Under the pieces are notes generated by a model, which ran no database searches, was not told the origin of the DNA, and saw nothing but the letters and a program-made list of their open reading frames with translations. A stretch of 64,000 bases of DNA from Tubulanus polymorphus (Eukaryota > Nemertea > Palaeonemertea > Tubulaniformes > Tubulanidae): assembly GCF_964204645.1 (NCBI RefSeq), contig NC_134030.1, positions 15,530,447-15,594,446 on the forward strand, in the 5' to 3' direction. The first letter of the stretch is position 1. Each line of letters starts with the position of its first letter. A program made the position numbers and the translations under genes. This document shows positions 44,251 to 64,000 of the stretch, one piece after another.

Positions 44251-44780
44251 AGTAATAGGGATAATAGGCTTTCAGATCAAAGGTCTAAGGGTCGAGCTCG
44301 TAAAAAAATGAAAATAATAATAATTTACAGCTGAATTAGTCGCGCACACTCCTAATTCAACTGTAAATTATTATTATTTTCATTTTTTACTCACTCACCC
44401 CTTCAACCTTTGATATGAAAGCCTATTATCCCTAATACTCCTAAAATATTCATATATATGAATAAAATATAAATGAATAACTTCTAAAATCAATTTTAAT
44501 AAAAAATTTGATATTAAAATGGAAACAAATAAGTACTACTGTCCAACATGTAATATCAATATAGATAAATCCCAAAAAGCAAGGCACAATAAAACTAAAA
44601 CACATTTAGAGAATAAATTGAAACTAGAATATGAAGATGATATATTAGAAACTAAATTAGATGAATTAAAGAATGAAAAAGATACATATAAATGTGATAC
44701 ATGTAATCAATCATTCAGTGATAAAAGATATTTTAAAGAACATTTAAAATCTAAAAGTCATATTAGAAATAAGAATAATG
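44251..44780. repeat. Left terminal inverted repeat
   Basis: About 530 bp matching the reverse complement of 59187-59716 with a few per cent difference. It includes the start and the first roughly 86 codons of the polymerase gene. The outer 189 bp (44251-44439) are themselves a palindrome: two arms of about 88 bp around TCGCGCACACTCCT. Confidence 0.92.
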
Positions 44781-45414
44781 ATAACTTATTTTCATTATTT
44801 AACATTAAAAATTATATCTCAGCAACAAATTTAGTGTATGGAAGACAATATAAAATTGATAATATTTCTATAATCAATCAAATATTATCAAATGAAGCAT
44901 ATTTAATTATTGAACTGATAGATAATGGAATCAAAAATCCTAACATATTTCATACAGTTTTAAATCATAAAGGAACTTTAGATGAAAAAATGATAAATAT
45001 TCTTGAAACTCCTTTCAATGATAGAAATGATGATTTAATACTTTCTAGAGGTTACAATAATTTGATTAACTTAAGAATTGATAAAAGACAATTATATTAT
45101 TTAAATTTGATGATAAACCAATTATCTATAATGAAAATTCATCAAATATTGGTATTCAATGTGAATTAGATAATAATAATTCTTATAAAGATATTGGAAT
45201 TCAATGTAATTTAGATGATGAAATTGTTGCGCCTAAATATAATCCTAATGAAAGCGTTTTATGTAATTGTGGAAAATATTATACTCGAAGCAATAAATCA
45301 CACCATCTTAAATCAAAATATCAAAATATAACTCCAAATATTAACCAATTTAGTAAAAAAATACGTATAATAAATGGAACCAGAACAACCACAAACTATC
45401 AATATTACAAATAA
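44519..45414 (+). pseudogene. Left-end gene: polymerase-type zinc fingers plus unknown domain
   Basis: The first 86 codons are nearly identical to the start of polymerase B at the other end, because they lie in the terminal repeat. They contain two zinc-finger motifs (CPTCNIN with two His at about 8-29, CDTCNQS with two His at about 58-80). The sequence then changes to a different domain (ISIINQILSNE, LRIDKRQLYY, two IGIQC motifs, then CNCGKYY with two His). A frameshift near 45103 separates the first 217 codons from the C-terminal part. Related fragments occur at both ends of remnant C, so the domain is a regular Polinton end component. Function unknown; zinc fingers near the termini could bind the element ends. 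Confidence 0.65.
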
Positions 45415-46029
45415 CACTGGTGTTATAAATATATATTACAAGAAGTGTTCTAAATGTGAATTTGATAAATTAGCTTTAACAGAATTTAGTAAGCGTAAGA
45501 TTAGCAAAGATGTTTTCAATATTGCTGTAAAACTTTTTTTAAACTATATACCAAACAATACCGAGAAGATAATATAGAACATTATAATTATTATATGGCA
45601 GAATATATGAGAGAAAGATATCAAACAGATCTTAATTTTAGATTGAAACAATGCTTAAGATCTAGATTAACACAATTATTCAACAAAGAAACGCATTCAG
45701 AAACACTATCTAATTTATTGGGTTGTTCAGATGAATTCTTAAAATCATGGATAATATTTCAATTCGATGATAAAATGAATATAAATAATGATGGTAATTA
45801 TTTTCATATTGATCATGTGTTGCCTATTTCTAAATTTGACATGAATGATGAATATGATAAAAAGTTAATTTGGAATTGGAAGAATTAAAGACCTCTTGAA
45901 AAGAAAGAAAATAAAATAAAATTTAATAAACTAGATTTACAGTTATATTTGGATCAATTAGATAAAGCAAAGAAATTCATTGAATTATGGAATAATGATC
46001 AAAATAATGAACAATACGTTGAGTCTTAA
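45374..46029 (+). pseudogene. HNH endonuclease, broken
   Basis: The N-terminal part has a zinc knuckle CSKC with FDKLALTEFSKRK. A later frame has a region LLGCSDEFLKSWIIFQF, then HIDHVLPISKF (the HNH histidine pair), then WNWKN, and after an in-frame TAA (45886-45888) RPLEKKENK with a final asparagine-lysine motif. This order is that of HNH endonucleases common in large DNA viruses and phages, often of free-standing homing type. A frameshift near 45535 and the stop after WNWKN make it inactive as it stands. It lies between the left-end gene and the 46287 gene; its start overlaps the previous frame. Confidence 0.75.
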
Positions 46030-46286
46030 ATGAGAGTTTGAAGAATAATAGAATTTAAATAAAATATGATAAAAAAACAATAACTTTAACTGCTTGTGAA
46101 TTCTATTATATGTTTAATATTTTCTTTTCAAAAAAGAATACTTTATATCACAAATAAAAAATACTAAAAAACAATAACTAATACTAAAATTCTTTACCTT
46201 TTACTAAGCTAGTATTAATCTAAAGAGATACTGGTATCATTTTATAATACTTATAATATTTTTCTTATTAAATTTCTCTAATATAA
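46030..46286. promoter_or_regulatory. AT-rich intergenic segment before the integrase operon
   Basis: 257 bp, almost only A and T, with AAAAAAACAATAACT near 46072 (like the hairpin arm at 362-378) and TATAATACTTATAATATTTT immediately upstream of the next start. A promoter here is plausible for the 46287-48939 gene run; inference only. Confidence 0.3.
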
Positions 46287-46888
46287 ATGTCAAAGAAATC
46301 TAATAAGAATAATATTGATATTGAAAAGACATTAGATGATTTGGGTATAAGTGATAATAAAGATACAGTTGTAACTAATTGTGCTCAAGTTAATTGTAAT
46401 ATAGATTATGAATACTATTTATATTGTAAACACCATCTAGAACTATTGATTGCCGGTGGAAAAACTAAAGAGTTTTTAAATAGAATTATTACTTTTCAAG
46501 AATTAGACTCTATGAAACCCGATAAAGTAATAAAATATTTTAAGATTTTGGAGAGGCAAGATGAGCCCGAATAAATGATTCTATTTCAGATGGTATTGTC
46601 AAATGTTATTCTAAGTTATGTAACCAGTTAATACCAATTAATGATGAAAATAAATTATATAGTGATTTGAAAAATGACTATTTAGTTATGACTGAATTAC
46701 AAAAATTGGTTGGTTATGCTTCATCTCAAATAGGATCGGTTATGACATTAATTTCTACTGGTGTCATAACATTTTCGAACATCAAGCCTATGGAATATAA
46801 ATCAGGTAAGAACGAAACAGATGTACTACAACCAAACGTCGAAACAGAAAATGAATCAGAACAAAAATTAACTAAAATAAATGAGTGA
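46287..46888 (+). pseudogene. Conserved Polinton protein of unknown function, frameshifted
   Basis: The first frame (to 46574) has IEKTLDDLGI, YLYCKHHLELLIAGG and LDSMKPDKVIKYFKI. The second (visible from about 46570 to 46888) has SDLKNDYLVMTELQ and a hydrophobic C-terminal pair ending TLISTGVITF. The homologue in remnant B (22658-23261) is uninterrupted across the same point, so the change near 46555-46575 is damage in this copy. The stop overlaps the ATG of the integrase frame by 8 bp, suggesting translational coupling or shared transcription. Function unknown, probably membrane-associated. Confidence 0.65.
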
Positions 46889-48380
46889 TAGCGTTAAGAA
46901 GAAGCCTAGATCCGAGAAACAAATTATATGGGCAAGAGAATTAGGTAAAAGATCTTCAGAATTAAAAAAAGCTAAGAAAAAGAAATTAACTGATATAAAT
47001 GAATCACAGACTTTATCTGATATTGATTCAAATAATAATCCATCTAATTCTTCTAATGCTGGAAGTAATTATAAATTATATATTACAATTGGATCAGTAA
47101 CAGTTATTATATTATCCGGCGTAATATATAAATCAAAATTCAAATCTGATGATAAAGATGATTCAAATGATAATAAACCTATTATACCAGAAAATAAGTC
47201 AAATCATAAAGTCATTGAAACTAAATCTAAATTATTATTAATGGATAAAAATAAGATGAAAAAAGAACAATATTTAAGAGAGTTATATTACAACCCAGAG
47301 AGTGAAGTATCATATTCTAACGTTTCAGAATTATGGAATAAAATTAAATCTGATAATGAAAATGGTGCCGTACGGCACCCACATGGTGATATAAAATATA
47401 GTGAATTAAGATTATGGTTACAAAATCAACCAACATATCAAATCCACAAGAAAATGGATAAAACTTATTTAACAAGGAAAGTTATGGTTTCATATATCGA
47501 TCAACAATGGCAAGCAGATTTAATTGATATGAAGAACTTAGAGGAATACAACAAAGGATATTTCTGGATACTGAATGTTATAGACATATTCAGTAGATAC
47601 GCATGGTCAATTCCAATCAAAAATAAAACTGGTATAGAATTGACAAATGCTTTTAAATCAATATTTAAAGAAGCTATTCCAGATAAGATACAATTTGATG
47701 GAGGTAAAGAATTTTATAACAAACATTTTAAAAAACTATTATCTGATAACGATGTAGATTATTTTTCAACACATTCAGATAAAAAAGCATCTATTATAGA
47801 AAGATTTAATAAAACATTGAAAACTAGAATGTGGAAATATTTTACTGCTAATGAAACATAGAAATATATCGATGAGTCTAAAAATATATTAGATGATTTA
47901 GTGAAAGGTTATAATAATTCTAAACATTCAAGTATTGGTATGAAACCTATACAAGCTAGAAAAGAAGATAATTCGGAAATAGTTTGGAATAATTTATATG
48001 GAGCGTTTGTTACACATGATTTCGGCGAACCTAAATTTAAAATTGGACAACACGTAAGAATATCTAAATATAGAAAAACATTTTATAAAGGTTATACCCC
48101 AAATTTTACTGAAGAAATATTCAAGATTAAAAAGATAATATTAACTAAACCTTTTGTTTATAAATTAGAAGATCTAAAAGATGAAGAAATATTAGGTTAT
48201 TTCTATGAACAAGAATTATCACTTGTACCAAATCCAGATGAAATAGAATACAAAATAGAAAAAGTATTGAAAACAAAAACTCTTAAAGGAAAAAAGTATT
48301 CTTTGGTGAAATATAAAGGATACGATGATAAATTTAATGAATGGATTTTATCTAGTAAAATTAAAAGAATAAATGAATAA
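46881..48380 (+). pseudogene. Retroviral-type DDE integrase with chromodomain, one premature stop
   Basis: The Polinton integrase inserts the element into host DNA. Residues 1-110 are a basic segment and one membrane-like helix (ITIGSVTVIILSGVIY), which in remnant B is a separate gene. The catalytic core follows, with the first Asp in WQADLIDM, the second in IQFDGGKEF and the Glu in KASIIERFNK. After an in-frame TAG at 47859-47861 the same frame continues with HSSIGMKPIQA, a C-terminal SH3-like part, and a chromodomain near the end (YSLVKYKGYDDKFNEW). Only one stop breaks it. The true integrase start may be an internal ATG near 47240. The ATPase start overlaps its end (ATGAATAA). The zinc-binding HHCC part is not clear. 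Confidence 0.9.
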
Positions 48381-48939
48381 AGATTTATTTATATTTGAAC
48401 CGCATAAAATGTTAGTTACTGGAGTAACAAACTGTGGTAAAACACATTTCATATTAGACTTGTTAGATACTATTTATAAGAATCATTTTGATAATATAAT
48501 ATTATTCTGCCCCACTTATGAAATGAATAAAACATATAATAGAGATATAGTTAAGATGAAAAAGTTTATTATATTAGATCCTAAAACAGTAAAAGAAAAT
48601 TTAGATAATTGTATAAAAATAGCAATTGATACTTATAAAGGATCAAATACATTATTCATTATAGATGATTGCGCTAATTTACATGATTCAAAAGTGAGAG
48701 AAAGTGAGTTATGTTATCTAGCTTTCTCTGGGAGACATTTTGGGATAACAACATGGGTTTTAAATCAAAAATATAATTCAATTGTTAAAGACTTTAGGGA
48801 GAATATAAGATTTCTAGTTTTATTTTATAACAAAGATAGAAAATGTATGCAACAATCATTGGAAGAAAATCAAATTATACCTACTGAGTTACATGATGTT
48901 CTAAAATCTAACCATAATGCATATTTATTACCGGTATAA
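48373..48939 (+). CDS. A32-like genome-packaging ATPase
   Basis: A 188-residue intact frame of the FtsK/HerA-superfamily ATPase that pumps DNA into capsids in Polintons and related viruses. Walker A is GVTNCGKTHF (about residues 17-26), Walker B is LFIIDDCA (about 95-102), and a sensor-like region follows (GITTWVLNQKYNS). The start overlaps the integrase stop by 8 bp. The product is slightly short for the family (usually 200-250) and its end runs 70 bp into the 3' end of the convergent capsid gene, so the last residues may have been altered by the same rearrangement that truncated the capsid gene. Confidence 0.9.
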   Translation: MNKDLFIFEPHKMLVTGVTNCGKTHFILDLLDTIYKNHFDNIILFCPTYEMNKTYNRDIVKMKKFIILDPKTVKENLDNCIKIAIDTYKGSNTLFIIDDCANLHDSKVRESELCYLAFSGRHFGITTWVLNQKYNSIVKDFRENIRFLVLFYNKDRKCMQQSLEENQIIPTELHDVLKSNHNAYLLPV

Positions 48940-49971
48940 TAATAAATTTGATTAATGTTACAATTTTCAGATGATTTTACTTTTTCATTCATAAAATGTT
49001 TTCTAATTTCTGGCCATTGATCAATCATTCTCATTCCTTGACAAAATATTTTATTTGCTATTCCTTCGATAGTTATTTCTACTTTTGTTATTTCAGGATT
49101 ATAATAATTATCAACATTTATTGCGCCATTAGTATATGTTGCAATGGTAAAAAATATTAATATGCCTTTAATAGATCTCCTTGGGAAGTTAATATTCTCA
49201 TTAATTATTTCATCATTTGCATTAATAGTTACGGTTTTAAATTTATCAATATAATCATATAATAATGAAAATCCTTGATTGTATTGAGTTTGAATTATAC
49301 TTGAAATATTTTCATCAGTTACTGTGTCATATTCTAAACATATATTCGATAATTTATAACCCATATCTTTAACAACGCTAGATATTACAATTTCATTTAC
49401 AGGAGCAAATGTTATTTCGAATATAACGTCTTCTTGAATTGCATATTTATATAAAGGCGCATCATTATTTATCAATTCAAAGTCTAATGGAATTTTATAT
49501 TTGCTTCCATAAATCTTTTTTATCAAATTATCTGCGGTACGAGTTACTATTGCGTCATTAGCTCCTGATCTTAATTTATTATGGTTTTCTGATTGGATTC
49601 CTTGAAATATCGTATTATTTCTATTTTCTTTAGTTAACCATTAATCTTTATAATGCATAAATAAATTATAATCATCTAATGAGAAAACTGTTTCTGGACC
49701 AATCTTTATAGTTAATTTTTTAATCAAATATCTCCCAACATTATCAACAACATAATTATTATTATTACCGATTACTTTTATATCGGCTGATAAATAAATA
49801 CTATTTGGAACATAAAAAAGTATTTTGTGTTAATCTAGGAATTCTAACATATAAAGTTTCATCGGGATTAATATTAGAAGGATTATGAGTAATTATATGA
49901 TGTGATCTTTCTGCTTTAATAGCATTAGATATTCTAGAAATCTTAGAAGGACTTATATAACTCCCACTCAT
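48870..49971 (-). pseudogene. Major capsid protein (Polinton double jelly-roll type), broken and truncated
   Basis: The best-preserved part (48870-49526) has the features of Polinton major capsid proteins: YGSKYKIPLDFEL, FEITFAPVNEI, YKLSNICLEYD, FPRRSIKGIL, NPEITKVEITIEG and ALWLDFRT. The N-terminal part starts at 49971 after the TTAAATAAATG motif and contains VRIPRL and, in other frames, the middle of the first jelly roll. Breaks: a frameshift near 49820, an in-frame stop near 49641, and loss of the C-terminus right after LDFRT, where family members normally continue for roughly 60-100 residues. The remaining 1.1 kb is shorter than a normal gene of about 1.4 kb or more. Confidence 0.85.
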
Positions 49972-49991
49972 TTATTTAACAAAAAAATTAA

Positions 49992-51464
49992 TTATTTATT
50001 TTTTATTATTTTTTCTTGATATCTTTTTGATATCATATTCACTAACCCAAAAAAAATAGCACTTACAACTGTAATTAAAAATAAAATAATATGTTCAGCA
50101 GCAAAGTTAATAATGTTTCCTGCAGATTTCAATATAAAACCAACAATTGATGCAATAATTCCTGGTAATGCTGCAGCAGATTTTTTAGATAGTTCCCATA
50201 AATATTTTGCTAATTTCTTTAAACCATCCTTAACTTTATCTTGTATATAATTATTGTCATTCGGGGGTTTATCTGGTTTATTGGGAGTAGGAGTGGATTT
50301 CAGTGAATTTGATATTGCTAAACCTATTGTTGTAAATACCATAGTTACAGCTGTTAGAATTGAAAGAATTGTTATTCCTTCTAATTTAAATAATAACTTT
50401 ATTCTATCTTTCAATGATATTTTAGAATTTGGTTTTAATAGATATCTTTTAAAAACATCTTTTAATCTTTTAAAATTATTACCAAATTCTTTTAATAATA
50501 TATCTCTTTCACCTTTCAGTACTTCTAAATTATCTTTTAAATTATTAATTTTTTTAATTTTAAATTATAAATTTTTTTAAACGCGATTCTTTTTGTCTAT
50601 GTTCCATTTCATCAATTACTTGACGATCAAGACCAGACTTTAATTGTTCTATTTCTTTATTTTTATCAGTTAATTCTTTTTCTAAATTGTTAATTTTAAT
50701 ATCTCTTATACTTTTATTATGTGCAATTTTATCAGCTTCATTTCTTATACTAATAATTTCTCTAATTGCTTCATCAGAAAATATATTTAAATCTTCTAAT
50801 TCTTGATCTGTTGCATCAAGTAATCCATTCGGTAAAAGTTTTTCAGTTTGAACTTCTCTTGAATTAGGTTTACTAGTTTTGGAATTAATAACTTCTTTAG
50901 GAATTTTTTTTGTCTTAAATTTTCATTAATTATCTTAAAAAATTTAGCATTTCTTTGTTTAAATTCTCTTCTATTATCAACTATCTCTTTTTCTGTAACA
51001 TCAGTTATAACATCATTAATGATTTTCTTAATTCTATCTGGTTTAAATAAATTAAAAGTTGATTGTGTTATTATTTTATCGTTACTTTTAAGATTTGAAA
51101 TCTTAAAATAATAGTCGCCTTTCAATTTCCAATAATAATCACCATTAAAATATTTCAAATCTTTTACTAAATAATTCATACCTTTATTTGTTATATTGAA
51201 ACCAGATCTTTTAAACATTGGTTTAAATTCATGAATAATTTCATTATATTTGTATTCTTTTTCTGTTATTTCTGGTACTTCATTTTCAATACTTATCTTT
51301 GAACGTGTTTTATCAATATATGGAGGTGTATTTAAATTAGAATTACGTCCTGGCTCATTACCGTCATTAAAACTTGTTTCATTAAAATCAGGTTGTTGTT
51401 CATCACTTATACCAGGTTCATCTAAAGGATCCAATGGAAAACCTTCTCCACCTTCTACATGCAT
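49992..51464 (-). pseudogene. Virion or membrane-associated Polinton protein with coiled coil, frameshifted
   Basis: Three successive frames add up to about 480 codons. The N-terminal part (51464-50935) is acidic and proline/glycine-rich (GGEGFPLDPLDEPG) followed by a lysine-rich fold (YFNGDYYWKLKGDYYFKI). The middle (about 50900-50570) is a long charged helix with heptad character. The C-terminal part (50414-49992) has hydrophobic helices (ITILSILTAVTMVFTTIG and HIILFLITVVSAIFFGLV) and a proline-rich linker. Frameshifts lie near 50930 and 50565. The start has TTAAATAAATG. I cannot match it to a known capsid component; a membrane-interacting internal virion protein is possible but unproven. 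Confidence 0.6.
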
Positions 51465-51484
51465 TTATTTAATAAAGAAATTAA

Positions 51485-52800
51485 AATTTAAAATATAATA
51501 TTCCTCCGATTACAATTCCTATACAAGTTAAAGCTAATTTAGCATTTTCATGGGATTTATTATCATCATTTAGTTTAATTATACCATGTTGAATAATATC
51601 AGTTCTAATATTTTCTGATGTATTGTAATCTTTTTATTTTAGAATCATTATTTAATTTGATATTATTAGTTTTAGTTTCTGTTGATTGAATATGTTTTAT
51701 ATTTTTTTCACCTTCCATTAATTTTGGAGCAGTGATAATCTTTTTATTTATATCATTCAATCCAAATGAATTATGTATTGTTGCAGTTTTAATTAGATTA
51801 TTGTAACCAATTATGTTTCCCATCTTTAATACTAAATCATTAGAAATAATTAATAGATTAGGGCCTATACAATAATTTAATCTAATATGTGATTCATCTA
51901 AATAGTTTTGATATCTTACAATGTTTTCTGGAATCGATCTATTTTTATCATTATGAATTGAATCTTCAAATAATACTTTAAATTGTTTCTGCGCATCAAA
52001 TGAAGTGTTATCATTTCCAACTATTGGGGATCTTGTTTCAACTTGTGCACCTAGAATACATATCAAATAAGTTCTAATAGATTGATTTATTCTTTGTATA
52101 CCAGCTTTAGTAAAACCTTCACTATTTTCTAAAATGAAATTAACCCAACCATTATTGTTTTGTTGTTGTATATTATTATAATATTTTGGTAATTCATTCC
52201 AATTTAGTGTTCTTATATCTGAATTTTTTCCAAATTCTTTAGTATATAATATTCCTAATCCACCCATTGTTCCAATTTTTGCTCTAAAATCTTTATTTAA
52301 AATTAATATCAAATTCATTACATATTTTATAAAACTTAGAAAAATTAATATTATTATTCAATTCTTTAAAATATTTTGAACCTGGTAAATGACATTCTAA
52401 TTCATCTAATATTAATTGTATTTGAAAATAAGTATGAAATCTAAAAAGTGATAACATCAATGGTAAACTTGGTTTGTTTAAATGATCATTCCAACTTATT
52501 CCACAACCTGTTGTTGCGCAATAAACAGCAAAATTTAATTGGTTCTGCCAATACTTCATATTAGATTTTAATAACCATTGTTTTGCCTCATTTAAATTTT
52601 TGAAATTAATTGTATACACATGAAATATATTTTCCACCTTTACATGGAAAATTATTACTTTCAGTAACATAAATATATAAATCAATTAATGAATTTAAAA
52701 CTTCATTTCTATATGTAATATCTTTATTAAAATCTATTGCGGGAATATTATATTTAATTGATTTATTATATTGGAAAGCTTTTGGAAAACTATCTGCCAT
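51485..52800 (-). pseudogene. Conserved Polinton protein with TTGCGIS motif, frameshifted
   Basis: The frames carry SFPKAFQYNKS and DLYIYVTESNN (52800-52610). Then comes a block FAVYCATTGCGISWNDHL followed by LSLFRFHTYFQI and LPGSKYF (52600-52310). Next are GGLGILYTKEF, FTKAGIQRINQSIRTYLICI and ILGAQVETRSPIVG (52310-51610), and a final hydrophobic helix in another frame (CIGIVIGGILYF, to 51485). Proteins with the TTGCG(V/I)S block and the GAQVxxRSxIVG block recur in Polintons of many invertebrates. I cannot say with confidence which virion or accessory role they have. Frameshifts lie near 52625, 52308 and 51620. The start follows an ATATAAATG sequence. Confidence 0.65.
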
Positions 52801-52814
52801 TTATATAATTAAAA

Positions 52815-53251
52815 AATTAATAATTTATTAATTCTTTTAATAATTTATCTTGTTCTTCAACTGTTATATGGCCATTTAGACTTATTATATAATCTAGTGT
52901 GTTCTTTAATTTATTAATTTCTTTTATATTAGTTTTAATTTTTTCTTTATCACTTTTTATATTTAATTTTGAACTTATACCAGTTTAAATACTTGAACTT
53001 AATCCTAATACACCAATTGATATAGCTAAAGGTGTTAATGGACTGAATATTGCTAGAAATGTTATTACAGAACTAATTGTAACCGAACCACTTATAATCA
53101 AATAATATATAATTTTACTTTTTAAATATTTTTTCTTTTTTATCTTTAAGTCACTTTCAAATTCTAATATTTGTTTTTCTAAATATGTTTTTAATTTAGT
53201 TTTATTTATATCATGAGGAATAATATCAATATTATCAACTTTATCTTCCAT
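52815..53251 (-). pseudogene. Small membrane protein with in-frame stop
   Basis: 88 codons with a charged helix (LEKQILEFESDLKIKKKK) and two adjacent membrane segments (IIYYLIISGSVTISSVITFL, then LTPLAISIGVLGLSSS). A TAA at 52985-52987 follows, after which the same frame continues for about 57 codons as a lysine-rich coiled-coil tail. Either the stop is a mutation or the short form is the product. Function unknown. Confidence 0.5.
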
Positions 53252-53282
53252 ATATTTAGAAAAAAATTACTAATTAGTAAAT

Positions 53283-53663
53283 TTATATGCTACAAATATA
53301 ACAATAACAGTTCTGTTGTTCTTTACTTTGGGTATAATAATCTGATAATTTAGGTTTGTATAGATGTAATTTTTCTTTATTTGTTACTGCGTTATATAAA
53401 CTCATTGCATCATCAACTGATTGAAAATCTCTATGTGAAATCTTCTGATCATATAATTCCTTGTTAATATAATCCATATAGTTTTGTCTCTTTTCTCTAT
53501 ATTCTTCTGCTGCTTTATTGTATTTCTCTAATGCTAAGTGATGTCTTTTTTGTTCTGTTAATGATCCATTTTTATCAATATGTTTAAATAAATAACCACC
53601 ACCAGTAAATGCTAAATCGTTAACAATTTCCGATCCTATAATAGTTATAATTGCAGAAGCCAT
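53283..53663 (-). CDS. Conserved small Polinton protein of unknown function
   Basis: An intact 126-residue frame. A short hydrophobic N-terminus (ASAIITIIGSEIVNDLAFTG) is followed by a basic amphipathic helix (KRHHLALEKYNKAAEEYREK), then RDFQSVDDAMSLYNAVT, and a C-terminal PKLSDYYTQS. To my knowledge, small proteins with the order hydrophobic start, H-LA-EK helix, FQ-VD-AM and LSDYYTPS accompany Polintons in cnidarians and other invertebrates; no function is established. The start follows TAAATAAATG, and the gene lies 24 bp downstream of the 53688-53909 gene in a minus-strand run. Confidence 0.75.
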   Translation of the reverse strand: MASAIITIIGSEIVNDLAFTGGGYLFKHIDKNGSLTEQKRHHLALEKYNKAAEEYREKRQNYMDYINKELYDQKISHRDFQSVDDAMSLYNAVTNKEKLHLYKPKLSDYYTQSKEQQNCYCYICSI

Positions 53664-53687
53664 TTATTTACTAAAATAATTACGCAT

Positions 53688-53909
53688 TTATATGGGAGGA
53701 ATATATTTTTGTTTTTCTAAATAATCAATAGTTAAATTAGATAAACTAACTGCTAATGTTAATTTTAAAATATCATTTATATCAAATCTATCAACATTAA
53801 CACTTCCCATTTTAAATACTTTTTTTAATACCATTGAATAACCAACGGTTCCAACTGATAGTAATTCTCCATTATATAATCCAGTTATTATCCACTTATT
53901 ATCACTCAT
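53688..53909 (-). CDS. Small Polinton membrane protein
   Basis: An intact 73-residue frame: MSDNKWIITGLYNGELLSVG, a hydrophobic region over about residues 16-30, and a second around LKLTLAVSLSNLTIDYL. It is similar in size and layout to small open frames next to the previous gene in other Polintons. Its ATG follows directly on the stop of the upstream gene (TAAATG), with the shared AAATAAATG sequence serving both. Function unknown. Confidence 0.65.
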   Translation of the reverse strand: MSDNKWIITGLYNGELLSVGTVGYSMVLKKVFKMGSVNVDRFDINDILKLTLAVSLSNLTIDYLEKQKYIPPI

Positions 53910-54248
53910 TTATTTATCAAAAAAATTACTATCATCAAAATATTTAGTTAACTTATTTATGATTAATTCAACATTTATTTCATTACTAGTTTCATTTGTA
54001 TATATTTCAATTATTATTTTTTTAATGTCATCGATGATAAAATCTTCATGTAATTCATAAAATCTTAAAGATTCTCTAATTAAATTAGTAATCTTTTCTA
54101 CATTTAAAGTTTCTTTATCTATTGTTGTTTCATTAGAAAATGTAATATTTTTGATATGTGTAATTACATCATTAATGTTAAATTTCATTTCTTTCTCACG
54201 TTTAAAATCAAATCCAAAACATATACTCGGTCCAACAGTTATATTCAT
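53910..54248 (-). CDS. Uncharacterised Polinton protein
   Basis: An intact 112-residue, acidic, mainly helical product (INDVITHIKNITFSNET, LRFYELHEDFIIDDIKKI). No recognised family. The protein at 61053-61427 in Polinton D is similar in size, charge and helical pattern (KYIFKQILRYYVDN), and could be a distant counterpart; I cannot show homology. The stop abuts the next start. Confidence 0.55.
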   Translation of the reverse strand: MNITVGPSICFGFDFKREKEMKFNINDVITHIKNITFSNETTIDKETLNVEKITNLIRESLRFYELHEDFIIDDIKKIIIEIYTNETSNEINVELIINKLTKYFDDSNFFDK

Positions 54249-54321
54249 TTATATAGTGAAAAAAATTACTCTTTTCATCTTATAACTAATTCATATATTA
54301 CAGGAAAGTTATTCAAATAAA

Positions 54322-55017
54322 TTAAATAACCATTATGATTTCTAATTTCAAATTATTGAAATGTGGAATACAAGGATTAAAATCACATTCAGCTAAATTA
54401 TAATTTATTTGCGTTCCAAATTGTTTAACATTCTTCAATGGTAAAATGTTAAGTAAACCAGAATTACAAGTTATATCTTTAGTTGCTTCAAATGTTTTTG
54501 GAGGATCGATTAAATTGCAATAAATATAAAAATGTGTAAAAGGTATTATATTTGAATTACCGTCTACGTTTCCTGTAACAGTTTGTGGTTTAATTCCTAA
54601 CAGTTTAGCTAAAGGTTTCCTTACCATAAATGCATGTTTGCTTTCATCACCTAACTCTATTTTAATCTTATCAGAACTATCACTTTTTATAAATCTAATT
54701 GAAAATTTATCTTCACTTTCAAGTTTTAATCGTGCTTTCCGATTAATTTCTTGGGCTAATGTTTCTAAATTATATAACCCTGGTTTTAAAAAGAGATGAA
54801 ACCATTTATCTACATTTCTAATATGAATTAAAAAGACTTTATGTTCGAGAGTTTTATCCGATATATTATAAAAAGAATTACATAAACTTATATTAACTAA
54901 TTTTAAATCTACACAATTCTTAAATTCTCTATCTAATTGTACTAGTAAATTATGAGATTTATAATTTGTAAGTCTTCTTGAATCAACAAATATTCTGTAT
55001 TCTTTTAATTCTACCAT
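54322..55017 (-). CDS. Probable penton (minor capsid) protein
   Basis: An intact 231-residue frame beginning MVELKEYRIFVDSRRLTNYK. It is beta-rich with LVQLDREFKNCVDLKLVNIS, SFYNIS, a central FLKPGLYNLETLAQEIN, then KPLAKLLGI, THFYIYCNLID and a C-terminal FNPCIPHFNNLKLEI. Length and order (N-terminal strand pair, YNI motif, G-x-Y-xx-x-LxxxIN helix, 'xxFYIYCxLID') agree with the single jelly-roll penton proteins of Polintons. The start has TAAAATAAATG. It is the largest intact virion gene here. A related non-capsid role cannot be excluded. Confidence 0.65.
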   Translation of the reverse strand: MVELKEYRIFVDSRRLTNYKSHNLLVQLDREFKNCVDLKLVNISLCNSFYNISDKTLEHKVFLIHIRNVDKWFHLFLKPGLYNLETLAQEINRKARLKLESEDKFSIRFIKSDSSDKIKIELGDESKHAFMVRKPLAKLLGIKPQTVTGNVDGNSNIIPFTHFYIYCNLIDPPKTFEATKDITCNSGLLNILPLKNVKQFGTQINYNLAECDFNPCIPHFNNLKLEIIMVI

Positions 55018-55034
55018 TTATTTTACATATTTTC

Positions 55035-55388
55035 TTATTCGAAATCTATTTCATGGTGCCCTTTTTCATTCTTACCTTTGTATACGAAATAGAAATCACC
55101 AGAACATAATTCTTCTAGATCTTCACTTGATAATCTATGAAATCTATCGGGTAAATATGTTCTGAATTTATATGTATTTCCTTTTAATCCTTCATATTCT
55201 AAGTGTATAACTAATTTATCTCCATATTTGTTAGTAACTCTATCAATATTTGTAATTAGATATTTCTTGTGGATTATTAATTCTTTTAACTTCTTAAATT
55301 TATAATCTACTGATTTGACATTTGAAGTATATTTTATTCTATCTAGAAATGATTTGTTGTTCTCACTGTGTGTTTGTTTACTCTCCAT
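55035..55388 (-). CDS. Small Polinton protein, possibly OB-fold
   Basis: An intact 117-residue frame: a polar N-terminus, then LIIHKKYLITNIDRVTNKYGDKLVIHLEYEG, FRTYLPDRFHRLSSEDLEEL, and FYFVYKGKNEKGHHEIDF. This alternating beta pattern, starting with 'kkY.it.i..v.tkyG.k.vv.l' and followed by 'f.vfLP.Rf', is common to small proteins in many Polintons. It resembles an OB-like nucleic-acid-binding fold, which is inference. A broken copy lies in remnant B (21105-21344). It is located between the polymerase and the probable penton gene. Confidence 0.65.
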   Translation of the reverse strand: MESKQTHSENNKSFLDRIKYTSNVKSVDYKFKKLKELIIHKKYLITNIDRVTNKYGDKLVIHLEYEGLKGNTYKFRTYLPDRFHRLSSEDLEELCSGDFYFVYKGKNEKGHHEIDFE

Positions 55389-55417
55389 TTATAATACATA
55401 TTTTTATTAAAATTTGA

Positions 55418-58400
55418 TTAACACGTTAGAATTCTTTTCATTATCTCGTTCTCTTTTGTTTCTTCTCTTTTAAATTTTAAGTATTCATCTAAATTACATC
55501 CATAAGCAACTGTATGAATTCCATCATCTAAAATATATCTTTTATCATCAAATGGGTTTAGACTTATCTTTTCAATTTCTTCAATAAACATTTCATGATC
55601 TTCAGATCTTAAACATCTCATTTTATGTTTTCTAACTTCTTCATTGAATATACAATTGATGTAATCTTTGAAATGAATATTCTTTTCTACCACATTTTTG
55701 GTTTTTCCTTTTAACTTTTTAGCTTCATGTTCTTTAGTTTTATATGAATACATTTTAGATCTAATACCAATGAATTCAATCATTTCTTCGCCACCTAATT
55801 CATCTTTGAATTTACCGGGAACTTTTTTATTATCATTGCTAAAAAATTCATGATCTTTAGGATAGTTACTAAAATCAAAATGATGTTTTAATGTTTTTAA
55901 ATCATCTGTTATGTTATCAGTTTTTATCTTTAATATGTAACTGTCAGTATCAAAATATAATATTTCTATATGTTTTTCTCCAAAAAGTAGTTGTAATATA
56001 TTATAATAGAATTCATACATTAGTAATTTTGATAATTCTAAAACTGATGCGCCAACATAGATTGGTTTATTAAATTTCATTGATGTTCTTCTCATTTTAA
56101 CTGCAGCTAAATTTTCATCAAATATCCTGTTACCTATAAATTTAGGATATGATTGTAAATGTCTAATTCTTTTACCATTACTAACTAACTCAATATCATT
56201 TCTATTTCTAATATTTTCACAAGTCTTACCATAGAATGCATTGTTCATTAACTTGAAGAAATCTTTTTCGAAATCAGTTTTAGCTTCAGTTCTCTGTTTG
56301 GTGTTAAAATCTATATATTTTTCTAACCATTTAGATTGACTAAATGAAATATATCTATGTACTTTTTTTAGAACCATTCCTTGATTCAAATAAAACTTTA
56401 ACATTCTATAATGTACTACATAATTATATTTATCTTTTTGAGTTACCATTAACTTTTCTGTATGAATATGATTTTCGGGTTTAATTCTTTTTTGGTAATT
56501 TGATAATTCTTCATGAGTTACAGTTTTATGTTCGGGACAGTATGCTAGATTTCTAGATTTAAATTTTTTATCTTCAGGATATTCTAAATCTACAACAAAG
56601 AAGTAACCAGTATCTGAATCATCTGCAATATCTAGAATTCTTTTCTTCCAATCAAATTTATCATTATTTTCATTCTGTAAAACTTCAGTTAATTCAAATA
56701 CTCCATAAGGTTGTGGTTCCATCATTGCCCAACCATACAAATTATTTGCATCTATATATAATAACTTATATCCAGGGTTATCATTTACATTGAAATATCT
56801 ATCCCCTAATACACCTGAAACACCTCCTCTTATAGATTTTTCAAATAATAGTAATTGATCTATATTTGTTAACAAATCCATTTTTATATCCGTAAATTTT
56901 AATCCACAATCCCATGTTAAACCTGGTGATGAATAACAATGACATGGATCAATATTAAAATATTTTAGGTTAACATCTCTAAACCTTTCGAATATATCGG
57001 TTAATAATAATACATCTGATTTTAGAAATCTACTTATTGTCCATGATTTGTTATTTTAAAATGATTCCAAATGTTCAATGTTCTGTTATAGACTTCATCT
57101 TTAACATATTCATTTTTTAATTCATCATAGAATTGTTCTTTTAATAATTCAGTTATGTTAAAATCATTATGATTTTTATAGAAAGAATATGGAATTGCTC
57201 CTTTATATCTCATTAATTGGAAATCATCATTATTTGGGTAGTGTTGTTTTAATATTTTCAATTCATCATCAACTAATGATTTTGATAAGTTATCTAATGA
57301 ACTATTTAAAAATCTATATGAATCTATAAATCTTAGACAACCAAATTGGAATGATATATAATTCTCAGATGTTTTAGCTAACATTCTAAATTTATAAGTT
57401 GGTATTTTATCTTTTGATCTATTTGAATTTAATCTTTCTATTTCGTTATTAATTTCTTCTATTTTATGGCATAACTGTTTGATGAATAAATGTGCATCAT
57501 ATCCTGATAGATTATGAAATATAACTGGTACAAAATTAATTTTCTTAGCTTGTAAGTTACAATTCTCATGTGCAGCGCCTCTAAACTTTCCGTTCAAATG
57601 ATCATGGTCTCTTACTTTTTTATCTTTATAATTAAATATCTTTTCACAATAATAACATTTATCTGCAAACGCAAATGCTTCTTTATCTTCTTCTGTCATT
57701 ATAATTTCTATATTTGTATTCAATAATTTACTAAATCTTATTTCATATTCAATTAATAAGTCACAAAAATGATTGATAACATTTTCAATTCTGTAATTAT
57801 AATATTCACTTTCAATTAGTTCTGGATAATCAGATTTAATATATAACCCGAAAGCAGCAGCTGATTGATGAATCTTTTTAATAGTATTTGTTTTTGGTGG
57901 TTCATCTGAAAAATCATTTTCATTAGAATTTAATTTCTTTCTTTTATAATATATTTCTTTTCTATCTTGATCAGTTAGTTCTTTATTTAATGATTCAAAA
58001 TCTCCATATATAACAAATGGATCTTCATTTTTGTAATCATATTTTTTGAATTCTAATATTTTATCTTTTTCATTTGGTAAAACTAATTTACAATAATCAT
58101 GATTTTCACATAATTGTTTATGATTCAATAATGTACTTTCATTACTGAATCTATGTAAACATTTTCTACAAAGATATATTTTATTATGGTGATCACTTTC
58201 CGTTCTAAAGAATAAATCTATTTGTTTAATCCACATATAATGATTCTCATAATATAATATATCTATAACATCATTTGAATCATAATCTTTTGATAGATAT
58301 AAAGGTTCTAATGTATAATGTTTTATATTGTTACCTTTTGTATTTGGTAATTTGATTAAATCAAATACGTTTATTCTTAAATTATTATCTCTTTCTATTT

Positions 58401-59448
58401 TTGGGATGTTTTTGATTATAACAGGATACTTATCTATCTTATAATTATTTTCAAATGGTTTATAATGAGTTAATCTACAAATATTATAAGTTGCAGGATG
58501 TAAACAACTTATTATAGCCCATAGAAAACATTTATCATCTTCATTTTGTACATTTATTACAGCTTTAGTTTTAAATGGTAGTTTAATATAACTCGATGCT
58601 TCAATATCTGGTTCTTTATGATATGATACATTATTTTCATCAATTGGTTTTGATTTAGTTAACTTATTACATTTTGTGTTATAAACATGTAAAGTCATAA
58701 ATATTATTTCATCAAATATTAAACCAGATCCTTCAAAAAATTTCTCTTCTATTTTAGTTTTTACTTCATTATAACATTTATCTAATTTATCATCTATATG
58801 TTGTTTTGAAATAATATGTTGTGAATGAGAATTTATATTATATATTGGTTTATCTTCAGATTTTATGAATTTAACTTTTGATGAAATACTTATTTTAGGA
58901 TATTCAACATCAGTTATTATTTTTATTATTTCTTTCATATTTTCTAAATGTTTTTTATTTTCTTCTAATGTTTTTCCTTTATGAAATTTAAACTCGATAG
59001 CTGCTGGGCCAATATCACTTTTAAATGCTTCGGTTATCTCTATATCTTTTTTATTATCTAATGAATTAATATATTTTCTTACATCTTCCATGTATGGTCT
59101 TTTATTGTTTAATTTATTTTGTATGCTTTTAATTGTCTTCTGTTTCTTATCATTATCTTTATCAAAATAATCTTCACCTAAAATATCATTATTCATATTT
59201 CTAATATGACTTATAGATTTTAAATGTTCTTTATAATATCTTTTATCACTGAATGATTGATTACATGTATCACATTTATATGTTTCTTTTTCATTCTTTA
59301 ATTCATCTAATTTAGTTTCTAATATATCATCTTCATATTCTAGTTTCAATTTATTGTCTAAATGTGTTTTAGTTTTATTGTGTCTTGCTTTTTGGGATTT
59401 ATCTATATTGATATTACATGTTGGACAGTAGTACTTATTTGTTTCCAT
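55418..59448 (-). pseudogene. Protein-primed DNA polymerase B, broken once or twice in the middle
   Basis: This is the replicative polymerase of the element. N-terminal frame (59448-57034, 804 codons): two zinc fingers (about 8-29, 58-80), a CRKC...H finger at about 430, exonuclease motif I YGDFESLN at about 490, an HNH-like zinc module (CYYC, VRDHDHLNGKFRGAAHENCN) at about 605-645, and exonuclease motif II NLSGYDAH. C-terminal frame (56881-55418, 487 codons): GVLGDRYFN, motif A YIDANNLYGWAM, motif B KLMNNAFYGKT and motif C YFDTDSY with both catalytic aspartates. Between them, at about 57010-57036, an in-frame TAA and a nearby stop with frame change separate the parts. There is no intein here, unlike Polinton D. 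The total of about 1,330 codons is normal for Polinton polymerases. Confidence 0.93.
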
Positions 59449-59716
59449 TTTAATATCAAATTTTTTATTAAAATTGATTTTAGAAGTTAATCATTTATAT
59501 TTAATTCATATATATGAATATTTTAAGAGTAATAGGGATAATAGGCTTTCAGGTTAAAGGTTGAAGGGGCGAGTGAGTAAAAAATGAAAATAATAATAAT
59601 TTACAGTTGAATTAGGAGTGTGCGCGACTAATTCAACTGTAAATTATTATCATTTTCATTTTTTTACGAGCTCGACCCTTCGACCTTTGATCTGAAAGCC
59701 TATTATCCCTATTACT
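59187..59716. repeat. Right terminal inverted repeat
   Basis: Mirror of 44251-44780. The outer palindrome is 59528-59716: two arms around AGGAGTGTGCGCGA. As on the left, the outermost arm carries CGAGCTCG and the inner arm carries GAGTGAGT, so outer arms of the two ends are more alike than the two arms of one end. Confidence 0.92.
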
Positions 59717-59992
59717 TATACAAAACCAAAATAATGAATTGTCGCGGGCGACAAAACAAAAAAGAAGAATTGTCGCGGGCGACAAAACCAAAATAATGAA
59801 TTGTCGCTGGCGATAAAACCAAAGTAGTGAATTGTCGTGGGCGATAAAACCAAAATATTGAATTTTCGCGGGCGACAAAACCAAAATAATGAATTGTCGC
59901 AAGCGATAAAAGCAAAATAATGAATTGTCGCGGGCTATAAAACCAAAATATTGAATTCTCGCGTGTGACAAAATCAAAATCATTGTTTTCTC
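59717..59992. repeat. 31-bp satellite, array 5 (0.3 kb)
   Basis: About nine units, same orientation as array 4, starting directly at the Polinton end (TATACAAAACCAAAATAATG) and decaying into unique DNA near 59990. It is the other side of the array split by the Polinton. Confidence 0.95.
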
Positions 59993-60885: not shown

Positions 60886-61020
60886 AACAGAAATAACAGA
60901 AAACCCTAATAAGAAACACGCGAATCTCAATAGGGTTTTCTGTGATGTAACAGAAAACCCTAATAAGAAACATGCGAATCTCAATGGGGTTTTCTGTGAT
61001 GTAACAGAAAACCCTAATTA
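60886..61020. repeat. Cluster of AGGGTTTTCTGT hairpins
   Basis: Two complete hairpins (60932-60961, 60986-61015) and a preceding half arm (ACAGAAAACCCT ending near 60908) form a 54-bp tandem repeat with ATAAGAAACAYGCGAATCTC between. They border Polinton D at about 61020. Minus-strand open frames here are only repeat. Confidence 0.85.
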
Positions 61021-61052
61021 TTCCATCAACATTTAACACACAAGAAAAGAAA

Positions 61053-61427
61053 ATGTATTTATATTTATTATTTAACGATTATTATAAAAAACCTAAATTA
61101 ACAGAAAAAGATATGGAAAATATAAAATACATATTTAAACAAATATTAAGATATTATGTGGATAATAGAATAACAGATTCAATTAATTATGAATTCTTTT
61201 TAAATAAGATTGTAAATTATTTAAACATCGATATTATAATTCCATTTGATGAATTAACAAACAAAAAGAAACAAAGAGAGCGAGATGAAATATGGTACAA
61301 GATAGAACTTTATTTAAATGAGAAAAATGAAATGGAAGAACCTAAACAAATTATACAAGAACAATTAAATAAAAAAGAAGAAACCAATAGTGATTTCGAG
61401 TTTGATGACATTGATTTTATGTCTTAA
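61053..61427 (+). CDS. Uncharacterised Polinton D protein
   Basis: An intact 124-residue, helical, charged product (ENIKYIFKQILRYYVDNRI, YFNIDIIIPFDELTNKKKQ pattern, acidic tail FEFDDIDFMS). No recognised domain. It converges on the polymerase gene, and their stop codons overlap by 4 bp (TTAATAA). Possible weak similarity in layout to 53910-54248. The start lacks the ATAAATG context, so it may not be the native one. Confidence 0.5.
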   Translation: MYLYLLFNDYYKKPKLTEKDMENIKYIFKQILRYYVDNRITDSINYEFFLNKIVNYLNIDIIIPFDELTNKKKQRERDEIWYKIELYLNEKNEMEEPKQIIQEQLNKKEETNSDFEFDDIDFMS

Positions 61428-64000
61428 TAACCATAAGGTAATGTTTTTATACCATCATCTAAAATATGCCTTTTATCATCAAATGGATTCAAACTAGTTT
61501 TTTCAACTTCATTAATGTACATCTCGTGATCTTTTGATCTTAAACAATTCATTTTATGTTTCATTACAATTGAGTTGTATAAACACTGAATATAATCTTG
61601 AAATTCTATATGTTTATCAACCACATTTTTTGTTATTCCTTTTAACTTTTTAGCTTCATGATCTTTTGTTCTGTAACTATACATTTTACTTCTTATCCCA
61701 ACAAATTCAATCATTTCATCACCCCCTAATTCATCTTTAAATTTACCAGGAATCTTTTTATTATCATTGCTAAATAGTTCGTGATCTTTAGGATAATTGC
61801 TAAAATCAAAATGATGTTTTAATGTTTTTAAGTCTTTTGTTATGTCATTTGTCTTGATTTTTAGTATGTAACGGTAAGTATTTTTGGCTATTAATGGAAA
61901 TCCACAGTTAAATGTGCCATCTTCAGTTGATAAATCATAAACATAATCTGTTGGGTTACATATTTCAAATAAATCTTTAACTTCTTCAGTTAAATCTTTT
62001 TCTGTATGCCTTAAATTAAAACAATTTGGCTTAGATTTAATTAATTCTATATTCATATTAAATCCTAATGAACTGCATAATATATTCAATCCTGATATAG
62101 CAACTTTTCCTTTTTGTGCAAAGGTTATCTTTTTATACTTAATAAATTTTTTAGTACCATCTGCTGCGTAGAATCCAATGAAGAACCATTTTCTTAAATT
62201 ATCTTTTGCATTTAATACATAATCTGGAACTATCTTTTCTTTTGTTGAAGTATTACTTTTCACTATTGCATGAATATAGAATTCATCATTATATTTTATA
62301 GCAAAATCTTTAGGATTATTTACAAGTAATCTATAAACTGCTGATGATTTCATAACATCCATGATTCTAAATGTTTTTTGTGAATAAACTTCTTCACAAA
62401 ATTTCTTAATTCTTTCTAATAATTTCAAGTCTTGATTGCATAAATACCAACAATATTTATTACCCCAAACGTAATTATACACACCTGCTGAACCATCACC
62501 CATGAAAAATCCTTTGATAAAATATTCTTTTTCTTCTAATGTTTCAGGTTCTATATTATAAATATTATCAATAATTTCGTCGAATGACATATGATTCATT
62601 CTTTGGAAAAATCTTTTATGTAATAATTTATCTCCAATTTTTATATCAGTTGGTTTTATTTCATCACCATTTCGTTTAATTAAACTATGATCTTCTGTAT
62701 CATCTACAAACCCTAATTTAGTTCTAACTCTATAGATTTTCTTATTTGTTTTATGCCTAATAATATTCTTTAATTTTTTCCATCCATTTCTTGTCCAAAC
62801 ATCCATTAGACCATTTATTTGTATTAATTCTTTTTCACCATACGAAATATATAGTTCGTTTTGTTTTGGAATTATTTCTGAAATTCTTCTTATCAATATT
62901 TTATTATTACATTTTTAATAATATTGGGGTGTCAGCTGTTACAGAATCAAAATATAATATTTCAATATGCTTTTCCCCAAAAATTGGTTGTAAAACATTA
63001 TAATAAAAATCATACATTAATAATTTTGTTACTTCTAAAACAGTTGAACCAATGAATATAGGTTTATTAAATTTCATTGACGTTCTTTTTAATTTAACTG
63101 CTGTTAAATAATCTTAAATAATCGTAAATCTTTTATTTCCTAGGTGTCTAGGACTTGAATGTAGGTGTCTTAATCTTTCAGAATTATTTACTAATTCAAT
63201 ATCATTTCTATTTCTAATATGTTCACATGTTTTACCATAAAAACTATTATTCATTAATTTGAAGAAATCTTTTTCAAATCTGTTTTTGATATGGTTCTCT
63301 GTTGAGTATTGAAATCTATATATTTTTCTAACCACTTCGATTGATTAAATTCAATATATCTATGTACTTTCTTTAATTTCATTCCTTGTTTTAGATAAAA
63401 TTTTAACATTCTATAATGAACGATATAATTGTATTTATTATTTTGAGTTAGTATTAATTTTTCTGTAAAAACACGATCTTTCGGTTTTATTTTCTTCTGG
63501 TATTCACTTAAATAACTATCATCTACGGTTAAATGTTCTGGGCAATAAGGTAAGTTTCTTGTTTTAAACTTTATATTTTCAGGATATTCTAAATCAACTA
63601 CAAAGAAATAACCAATTGGTGTTTCATCTTTTAAACTCGTAATTGCGCTTTCCCAATCAGTTTTATCGCCATTTTCAACTTCTGTTAATATAAAATGTTT
63701 GTATGGTTGAGGTTGCATCATTGCCCAACCATATAAATTATTGGCGTCAATATATAATAATTTATATTCATCATTTGCTTTAAAATATCTATCTCCCATA
63801 ACACCACTAATTCCACCTCTAATTGATTTTTCAAATACTAAAACCATGTCTGGTTCTTTTAATAAATCTAATTCTACATTTGTGTATTTTAAACCACATT
63901 GCCAGGTTAAACCAGGACTAGAGTAGCAATAACAAGGATCAACATTAAAATGATTCAAATTAACTTCTCTAAATTTTTCAAATATGTCAGCCAATATCAT
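61424..64000 (-). pseudogene. Protein-primed DNA polymerase B with intein, broken, 5' end outside window
   Basis: The upstream part (64000-63254, open at the window edge) has FRE..NLNHFNVDPCYCYSSPGL, GVMGDRYFK and motif A YIDANNLYGWAM. The next part (63335-63114) has motif [12 protein letters not shown]. The frame then reaches YFD, where an intein (62945-61880) interrupts motif C. The C-terminal part (61879-61424) has YILKIKTND, GKFKDELGGDEMIEF and ends DDGIKTLPYGY. Breaks seen: a frameshift near 63290, an in-frame TAA at 63114-63116, a frameshift inside the intein at the A-run 62912-62916, and a change of the residues after the insertion point from the usual TDS to TYR, which removes a catalytic aspartate. 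The gene therefore appears dead. Confidence 0.92.
61880..62945 (-). other. Intein with LAGLIDADG endonuclease in polymerase motif C
   Basis: About 355 residues inserted after YFD of motif C, the site used by viral polymerase B inteins (YGD/TDS). Block A is SVTADTPILLK at the N-terminus (Ser1 codon 62943-62945). Block B is the TEDH motif (FVDDTEDHSLI). The two endonuclease motifs are FIKGFFMGDGSAG and FFIGFYAADGTKK, both with the acidic residue. Block F is YVYDLSTEDGTFNCG and block G is FPLIAKN, followed by Thr. The penultimate His is Lys, as in some viral polymerase inteins. A single extra base in the A-run at 62912-62916, followed by TAA codons at 62901-62909, separates block A from the rest, so this copy cannot be made intact. 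Base composition matches the surrounding Polinton. Confidence 0.93.

Follow-up and report, generated by a model that had tools for sequence, protein, structure and literature searches.

A proposed full-size pol-c intein in the protein-primed DNA polymerase B of a Polinton family in the genome of Tubulanus polymorphus

The interrupted polymerase and its copies in the genome

The window analysed here is a stretch of 64,000 nucleotides (nt) from Tubulanus polymorphus (GCF_964204645.1, contig NC_134030.1, positions 15,530,447 to 15,594,446), near the end of which a copy of the DNA polymerase B (PolB) of a Polinton, interrupted by an intein, was found on the minus strand. From ...EILYFD the translated polymerase passes into SVTADTPILLK, and 1066 nt later comes ...GFPLIAKN/T. 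The intein occupies 61880..62945, with the Ser1 codon at 62945-62943, the last Asn codon (Asn355) ending at 61880 and the Thr codon starting from 61879; an earlier note on this DNA had given these limits exactly and had correctly placed the insert between YFD and Thr of motif C (...EILYFD/SVTADTP, ...IAKN/T). All blocks of the complete set claimed there were located, but the frame that holds them is broken in the window copy: the insert length misses a multiple of three by one base, the break falls within the first ~13 codons (intact copies have 355) and block A (SVTADTPILLK) lies in a different frame from the remainder. Block B (TEDH, T83-E-D-H86) was located by translation at 62687..62698, the first LAGLIDADG motif (FIKGFFMGDG, residues 142-151, with D150) at 62492..62521, the second (FFIGFYAADG, residues 254-263, with D262) at 62156..62185 and the C-terminal blocks F and G (YVYDLST...CGFPLIAKN, residues 334-355) at 61880..61945, all on the minus strand. 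The C-extein (61427..61879, minus) begins with TYR, compared with TDA (23) or TDS (17) in 40 of 41 copies with an unbroken C-terminal junction. The N-extein (62946..64000, minus) contains further frame breaks before the intein, and the 5' part of the gene extends to ~2.5 kb past the window end (L056). Because of the frame shifts at the intein start, the breaks in the N-extein and the Tyr-Arg after Thr, the window copy is a dead fragment of an intein-bearing Polinton family. A short open reading frame (ORF) at 61005-61427 resembles the ORF beside PolB in locus L057, and no further recognisable Polinton gene is present in the ORF list between 59720 and the window copy.

Intact copies, which the earlier note had suggested looking for in the same genome, were found in number. 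The assembly (G000) comprises 267.8 Mb in 77 contigs, the twelve largest of which (C1-C12) measure 11.5-32.1 Mb. A protein search with the intein gave 619 first-look places, and all 117 of those scored matched at 88-95% identity (the query itself apart). The N-junction pattern YFD/SVTADTP had 254 zero-mismatch matches in the genome compared with 0 for a reversed control, and the insert is therefore far from a chance reading. In 11 of 20 loci picked for long frames, a single open frame of 1686-1690 amino acids (aa) runs across N-extein, intein and C-extein, and three more have frames of 1540-1543 aa.

The scored copies lie on every contig from C1 to C12, and exons of Wnt, a signalling system described as uniquely metazoan in the passage cited (PMC5797367), were matched at all 39 scored places (best E 1.1e-64) on C1, C3, C4, C5, C7 and C9, all of them intein-bearing. 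Contamination by a protist or virus, which the earlier note had named as a finding that would undo its reading, might be suspected since pol-c inteins had been reported in a large amoeba virus (PMC549080, in the part cited). It was rejected on the distribution of the copies over C1-C12 and of the Wnt exons over six of these contigs, and is left with a negligible probability; the intein copies are moreover interspersed with decayed and empty ones, and the best HSP70 identities among named rows are to animals (arthropods and molluscs, 82-85%), with plant, alga, fungus and bacterial symbiont labels also among the 120 rows. A COX1 search aimed at the host gave no match. The earlier proposal of an intein in a protein-primed PolB of a Polinton family integrated in an animal genome is supported. 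As a separate observation, scored copies lie in inner contig parts (C1 at 14.1-22.4 of 32.1 Mb, C3 at 7.3-21.6 of 27.8 Mb, C4 at 10.0-16.6 of 27.4 Mb), as if in pericentromeric DNA, a pattern that the copies of C12, at 7.8-10.9 of 11.5 Mb, do not fit.

Around one of the long-frame copies, that at 11.9 Mb on C4, adjoining pieces encode an rve integrase with a weak chromodomain match and an A32-like ATPase (rve E 2.5e-10 and Pox_A32 E 3.5e-13 in L058, with a capsid-like ORF giving one weak match, Capsid_N E 0.014, under the cut-off). Other ORFs of this element resemble those of the complete Polinton in the window, and an identical short inverted-repeat sequence was found near both ends of the element of L036, L057 and L058, ~17.4 kb apart. 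The integrase, ATPase, Polinton-like ORFs and inverted repeats therefore identify the intein carrier, as far as its gene content can tell, as a full-size Polinton. The polymerase family DNA_pol_B_2 (PF03175) was scored by the genome search in the L036 frame just upstream of its intein at 73.3 bits, above the cut-off; it was not shown in profile scans of the whole 1687 aa L036 frame or of the window pieces.

Constraint, fold and relatives of the intein

Thirty-five copies were aligned and read in the register that one intact copy sets. Ser1, T83, H86 and D150 are invariant in all 35 and D262 is kept in 33. Among the 11 intact frames, the ratio of nonsynonymous to synonymous difference (pN/pS) is 0.25 for the intein (0.26 for the splicing part and 0.29 for the endonuclease part), with 0.08 in the N-extein and 0.16 in the C-extein; taking all 35 copies, the values are 0.23, 0.12 and 0.29 for intein, N-extein and C-extein. 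On account of this residue conservation and these ratios, both the splicing and the endonuclease part seem to have remained under selection up to recent times. The predicted model of the intein contains both a Hint splicing fold and a LAGLIDADG endonuclease fold, with the first LAGLIDADG helix at residues 136-150 and the second at 248-260, and matches the solved archaeal intein PI-PkoII (2cw7) along its whole length as well as the structure of PI-SceI. At the C-terminal junction, 41 of 52 copies are unbroken, each with the terminal Asn, 9 are broken and 2 were unmatched by the search motif. The nine broken junctions (L013, L016, L018, L020, L021, L047, L048, L049 and L050) all fail at one A-rich position immediately ahead of the final Asn codon, possibly by recurrent slippage, by sequencing error in a run or by damage after cutting; three of these nine copies are otherwise long open frames of 1540-1543 aa.

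Protein searches for relatives of the intein gave 14 in one and 282 in the other, of which the best 120 were listed, and class labels were assigned from Pfam matches or extein similarity. Among the relatives listed, those in protein-primed PolB share the same insertion site, and most others lie in large-virus-type PolB domains (PF00136 with PF03104), with some in topoisomerase II domains. Identity to the intein of this genome is 65% for P0016 (PF03175 E 5.3e-17), 53% for P0017, 49% for P0018, 47% for P0024 and 44% for P0025; the last two are without PF03175, yet have 48-53% extein identity to L036. P0017 stands for 136 member sequences, and a high intein copy number may therefore not be unique to this genome. 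A scan of viral contigs gave three loci at 29-41% identity. Three large-virus-type polymerases of 2079-2404 aa (P0019, P0021 and P0039) have intein-profile matches far longer than one intein and perhaps contain several each.

A 57-row tree was calculated from an input of 134 database proteins, 68 of which were omitted for unclear ends (topoisomerases included) and 10 in limiting the large-virus group to 45. The 12 protein-primed PolB inteins, four of them fragments, form one side of a branch with 100/99 support and the 45 large-virus-type PolB inteins lie on the other. The earlier note had proposed either exchange with large viruses or long co-inheritance, and the tree, by this separation, favours long residence among protein-primed polymerases, as judged from the sequences compared. 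A recent acquisition from the polymerase of a large DNA virus, for which the shared insertion site and intein type of large-virus-type PolB could be adduced, is unsupported by the tree and very unlikely: the protein-primed group stands apart, and P0016, the closest relative (65% intein and 60% extein identity), likewise belongs to a protein-primed PolB. The 49% intein identity of P0018, together with an extein identity of 22-31%, would fit a move of the intein between distant protein-primed polymerases.

As the earlier note had stated, an intein at this site is known in the PolB of a large virus, that of Mimivirus being located at YGD/TDS, the pol-c allele (PMC549080, in the part cited). The intein described here shares with pol-c inteins (Mimivirus, large-virus-type PolB, PI-PkoII) the YxD/TDS site in motif C, Ser1 and the LAGLIDADG endonuclease; with those relatives whose ends could be located, Asn followed by Thr+1; and with PI-PkoII, by its predicted model, the fold over the full length. 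It differs in its extein, the protein-primed PolB of an integrated animal Polinton, in its separate tree group, in its penultimate residue and in its copy number of over two hundred within a single genome. P0016, P0017, P0018, P0024 and P0025 have the same site and tree group, and are known only as predicted proteins. Like the fungal nuclear inteins of Prp8 and VMA1 (with PI-SceI), it is a putatively mobile LAGLIDADG intein in a eukaryotic nucleus (PMC5784728 and PMC1508164, in the parts cited); unlike them, it resides in a multicopy virus-like animal transposon rather than in a host gene.

The best explanation, held with high confidence, is that a high-copy Polinton family of an animal genome carries a full-size pol-c intein of 355 aa (a Ser1 splicing domain and a two-motif LAGLIDADG homing endonuclease), which splits motif C of its protein-primed PolB in two. 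There is good support for the intein itself, for where it sits, for its being integrated in an animal genome and for its intact frames. The sequence shows the position, the constraint, the predicted fold, the integration, the open frames of many copies and the existence of empty sites; splicing, cutting and homing are inferred. The polymerase would be made as a single precursor of ~1690 aa, from which the intein would excise itself by attack of Ser1, branching at Thr+1 and cyclisation of Asn355, so rejoining the PolB active site and enabling the Polinton to replicate. The released endonuclease would then cut the empty motif-C sites of other Polinton copies, and repair would copy the intein in.

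Several observations weigh against this explanation. The profile check proposed in the earlier note succeeded for one family, LAGLIDADG_3 matching the window ORF 61427-62914 (E 1.5e-5, 25.6 bits) above the cut-off of 22.5, but Intein_splicing (E 2.6e-7, 31 bits) stays under the curated cut-off of 35.8. In-frame stops interrupt 33 of the 117 scored intein matches (hand count), and the C-terminal junction is disrupted in 9 of the 35 copies aligned. The usual penultimate His is absent, the 41 unbroken junctions having Lys (29), Phe (9) or Val (3) in its place; His is usual, not universal, at this position in inteins, and Lys is also frequent among the large-virus pol-c relatives. Finally, the copies are mosaic at a scale of a few hundred bases, with correlations of pairwise differences between segments of at most 0.38 and mostly near 0.

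The neighbouring Polinton and empty sites

A complete Polinton of 15.5 kb without intein lies at 44247..59720 of the window, bounded by terminal inverted repeats of 542 nt (44247-44788 and 59179-59720, 96% identical). It encodes an integrase (46881-47861, plus strand, rve E 7.1e-9), a packaging ATPase (48373-48939, plus strand, Pox_A32 E 7.4e-12) and a PolB in two frames (55418-59490, minus strand), the C-terminal part of which (55418..57055) has YFDTDS as motif C, with the point corresponding to the insertion between 55949 and 55948. The N-terminal part (57037-59490, minus strand) has an Endonuclease VII match (E 3e-6). A 31-nt satellite (23255-44248 and 59720-59980) flanks the element on both sides, with ~466 units in one row of 14.6 kb and more in others, and the Polinton seems either to sit inside the satellite array or to carry the array along.

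The earlier note had offered the polymerase at 55418-56881 as an empty-site comparison. It does read through YFDTDS, but it belongs to another lineage, with 72-77% amino-acid identity to the exteins of the intein lineage, and nearer empty copies exist. In a genome search with this PolB part, in which 80 of 2446 first-look places were scored, all 80 were 94-97% identical (itself apart) and each spanned the motif-C site in one match, which points to a separate Polinton lineage without intein. Among the listed matches of the empty-site pattern (157 in all), at least four are nearer empty copies whose C-flank is that of the intein lineage, and one more was found separately; other rows include two with mixed flanks and one occupied junction. 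Three of the closer empty copies were read in sequence, one of which has the Asp-Ala form otherwise present beside inteins.

Diversity at the homing site and in the endonuclease

In the intein lineage, third-position diversity averages ~0.06 over the exteins and reaches 0.479 in the four codons after the intein (+1..+12), higher than in any of the 562 extein windows compared (0.454 at most); without near-duplicates (32 of 35 copies kept) the value is 0.477 and the next 0.438. The 27 nt before the intein give 0.323 (at most 0.316 in 436 others), and the last two intein codons before Asn355 are strongly variable (51 of 52 copies aligned). In the empty lineage, the nine bases after the site (+1..+9) have a diversity of 0.236 compared with at most 0.160 in 348 other windows, over 27 of 28 loci (one was dropped for a mutated motif); the nine-base measure was likewise top for the first 8 empty loci (none of 1510 as high). 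A distant PolB family, a small sample with 7 of 8 loci found, has site codons that agree among the closest copies.

A second concentration lies in the endonuclease, where residues 264-274 behind the second LAGLIDADG motif (62123..62155, minus strand, in the window copy) are hypervariable between copies at every second residue. Mean amino-acid diversity at residues 264, 266, 268, 270, 272 and 274 is 0.545, compared with 0.093 at the six neighbours in 263-273 and 0.077 over the intein, an alternation unmatched in 339 such windows (next 0.238); the nonsynonymous difference (pN) over 263-274 is 0.317 at even and 0.039 at odd positions. In LAGLIDADG enzymes, the stretch behind the motif contacts DNA with alternate residues (I-CreI 24-32). 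Residues 157, 160 and 162 associate with target type (1 and 8 of 2000 shuffles as high, with kinship between copies uncontrolled).

These patterns may tentatively be explained, at somewhat under even odds, by a homing drive that is still evolving, in which intein copies diversify the DNA-reading surface of the endonuclease and Polintons with and without the intein recode the cut-site codons to escape; that endonuclease and target co-evolve is a lead open to testing. The other account is that the diversity peaks, whether at the homing site or within the endonuclease, arose by chance or by patchy gene conversion from diverged copies, rather than by endonuclease-driven selection, and it has close to an even chance of being correct. 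Gene conversion between Polintons is pervasive, since the copies are mosaic throughout. No pN/pS above 1 was found in the patches tested (0.84 at the even positions, 0.93 at 152-166 and 0.92 at 185-195), and target type does not associate significantly with residues 264-274 (values as high in 459 and 487 of 2000 shuffles). After de-duplication the N-side peak falls to 0.303, with one other window higher at 0.308, and a nine-codon window inside the intein (0.349) exceeds the N-side value. For the first 8 empty loci the third-position measure is not extreme (11 of 502 windows as high), and the predicted model shows most of the 264-274 stretch as non-strand, with a predicted local distance difference test score of 75 for 261-270. 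Against chance or conversion stand the +1..+12 peak, which is top with and without near-duplicates, the independent peak of the empty copies at +1..+9, and the even/odd alternation at 263-274, which is hard to obtain by conversion alone.

An evolving drive has also to be weighed against a fossil one, in which the intein homed long ago, splicing is still needed wherever PolB is needed, homing by the endonuclease has ceased and multiplication of the Polintons alone spreads the copies. Many intein copies are indeed broken, the intein pN/pS exceeds that of the N-extein, and the mosaicism is general rather than specific to the intein; as a sign of intein exchange it was dropped, the exteins being equally mosaic, and homing is not provable from exchange alone, as general gene conversion gives the same mosaics. 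The retention of the LAGLIDADG Asp residues in nearly all aligned copies, an endonuclease part constrained about as strongly as the splicing part, and a diversity that is concentrated on the target site and, behind the second motif, on alternate residues argue against a fossil driver, which is considered rather unlikely.

Nuclease insertions in Polinton polymerases described in 2023 by Jeong are reportedly of HNH and VSR domains rather than a complete Ser/LAGLIDADG intein at motif C. Polinton protein-primed polymerases are stated to contain diverse homing endonuclease domains, suggesting intein invasions (PMC11071308, in the passage cited, after Jeong 2023), and the present intein is likewise a homing-endonuclease domain inside such a polymerase. 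No intein in an animal Polinton is described in the accessible portions of the open-licence literature on inteins and Polintons, and a report outside these is possible. In the passages cited, metazoan genomes are said to lack inteins, an absence argued to make inteins drug targets (PMC5784728, PMC8529194), and it is against this published absence that open intein frames at high copy in an animal nuclear genome are to be set. As occupied and empty copies, and intact and broken ones, occur together in one genome, the stages through which a homing element passes (invasion, recoding of the target and decay) become directly testable, and the genome is a source of natural LAGLIDADG endonuclease variants together with natural target variants. 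If the reading as an evolving homing drive is true, the copies would document gene-drive resistance, and the adaptation countering it, in two selfish elements nested one in the other inside an animal.
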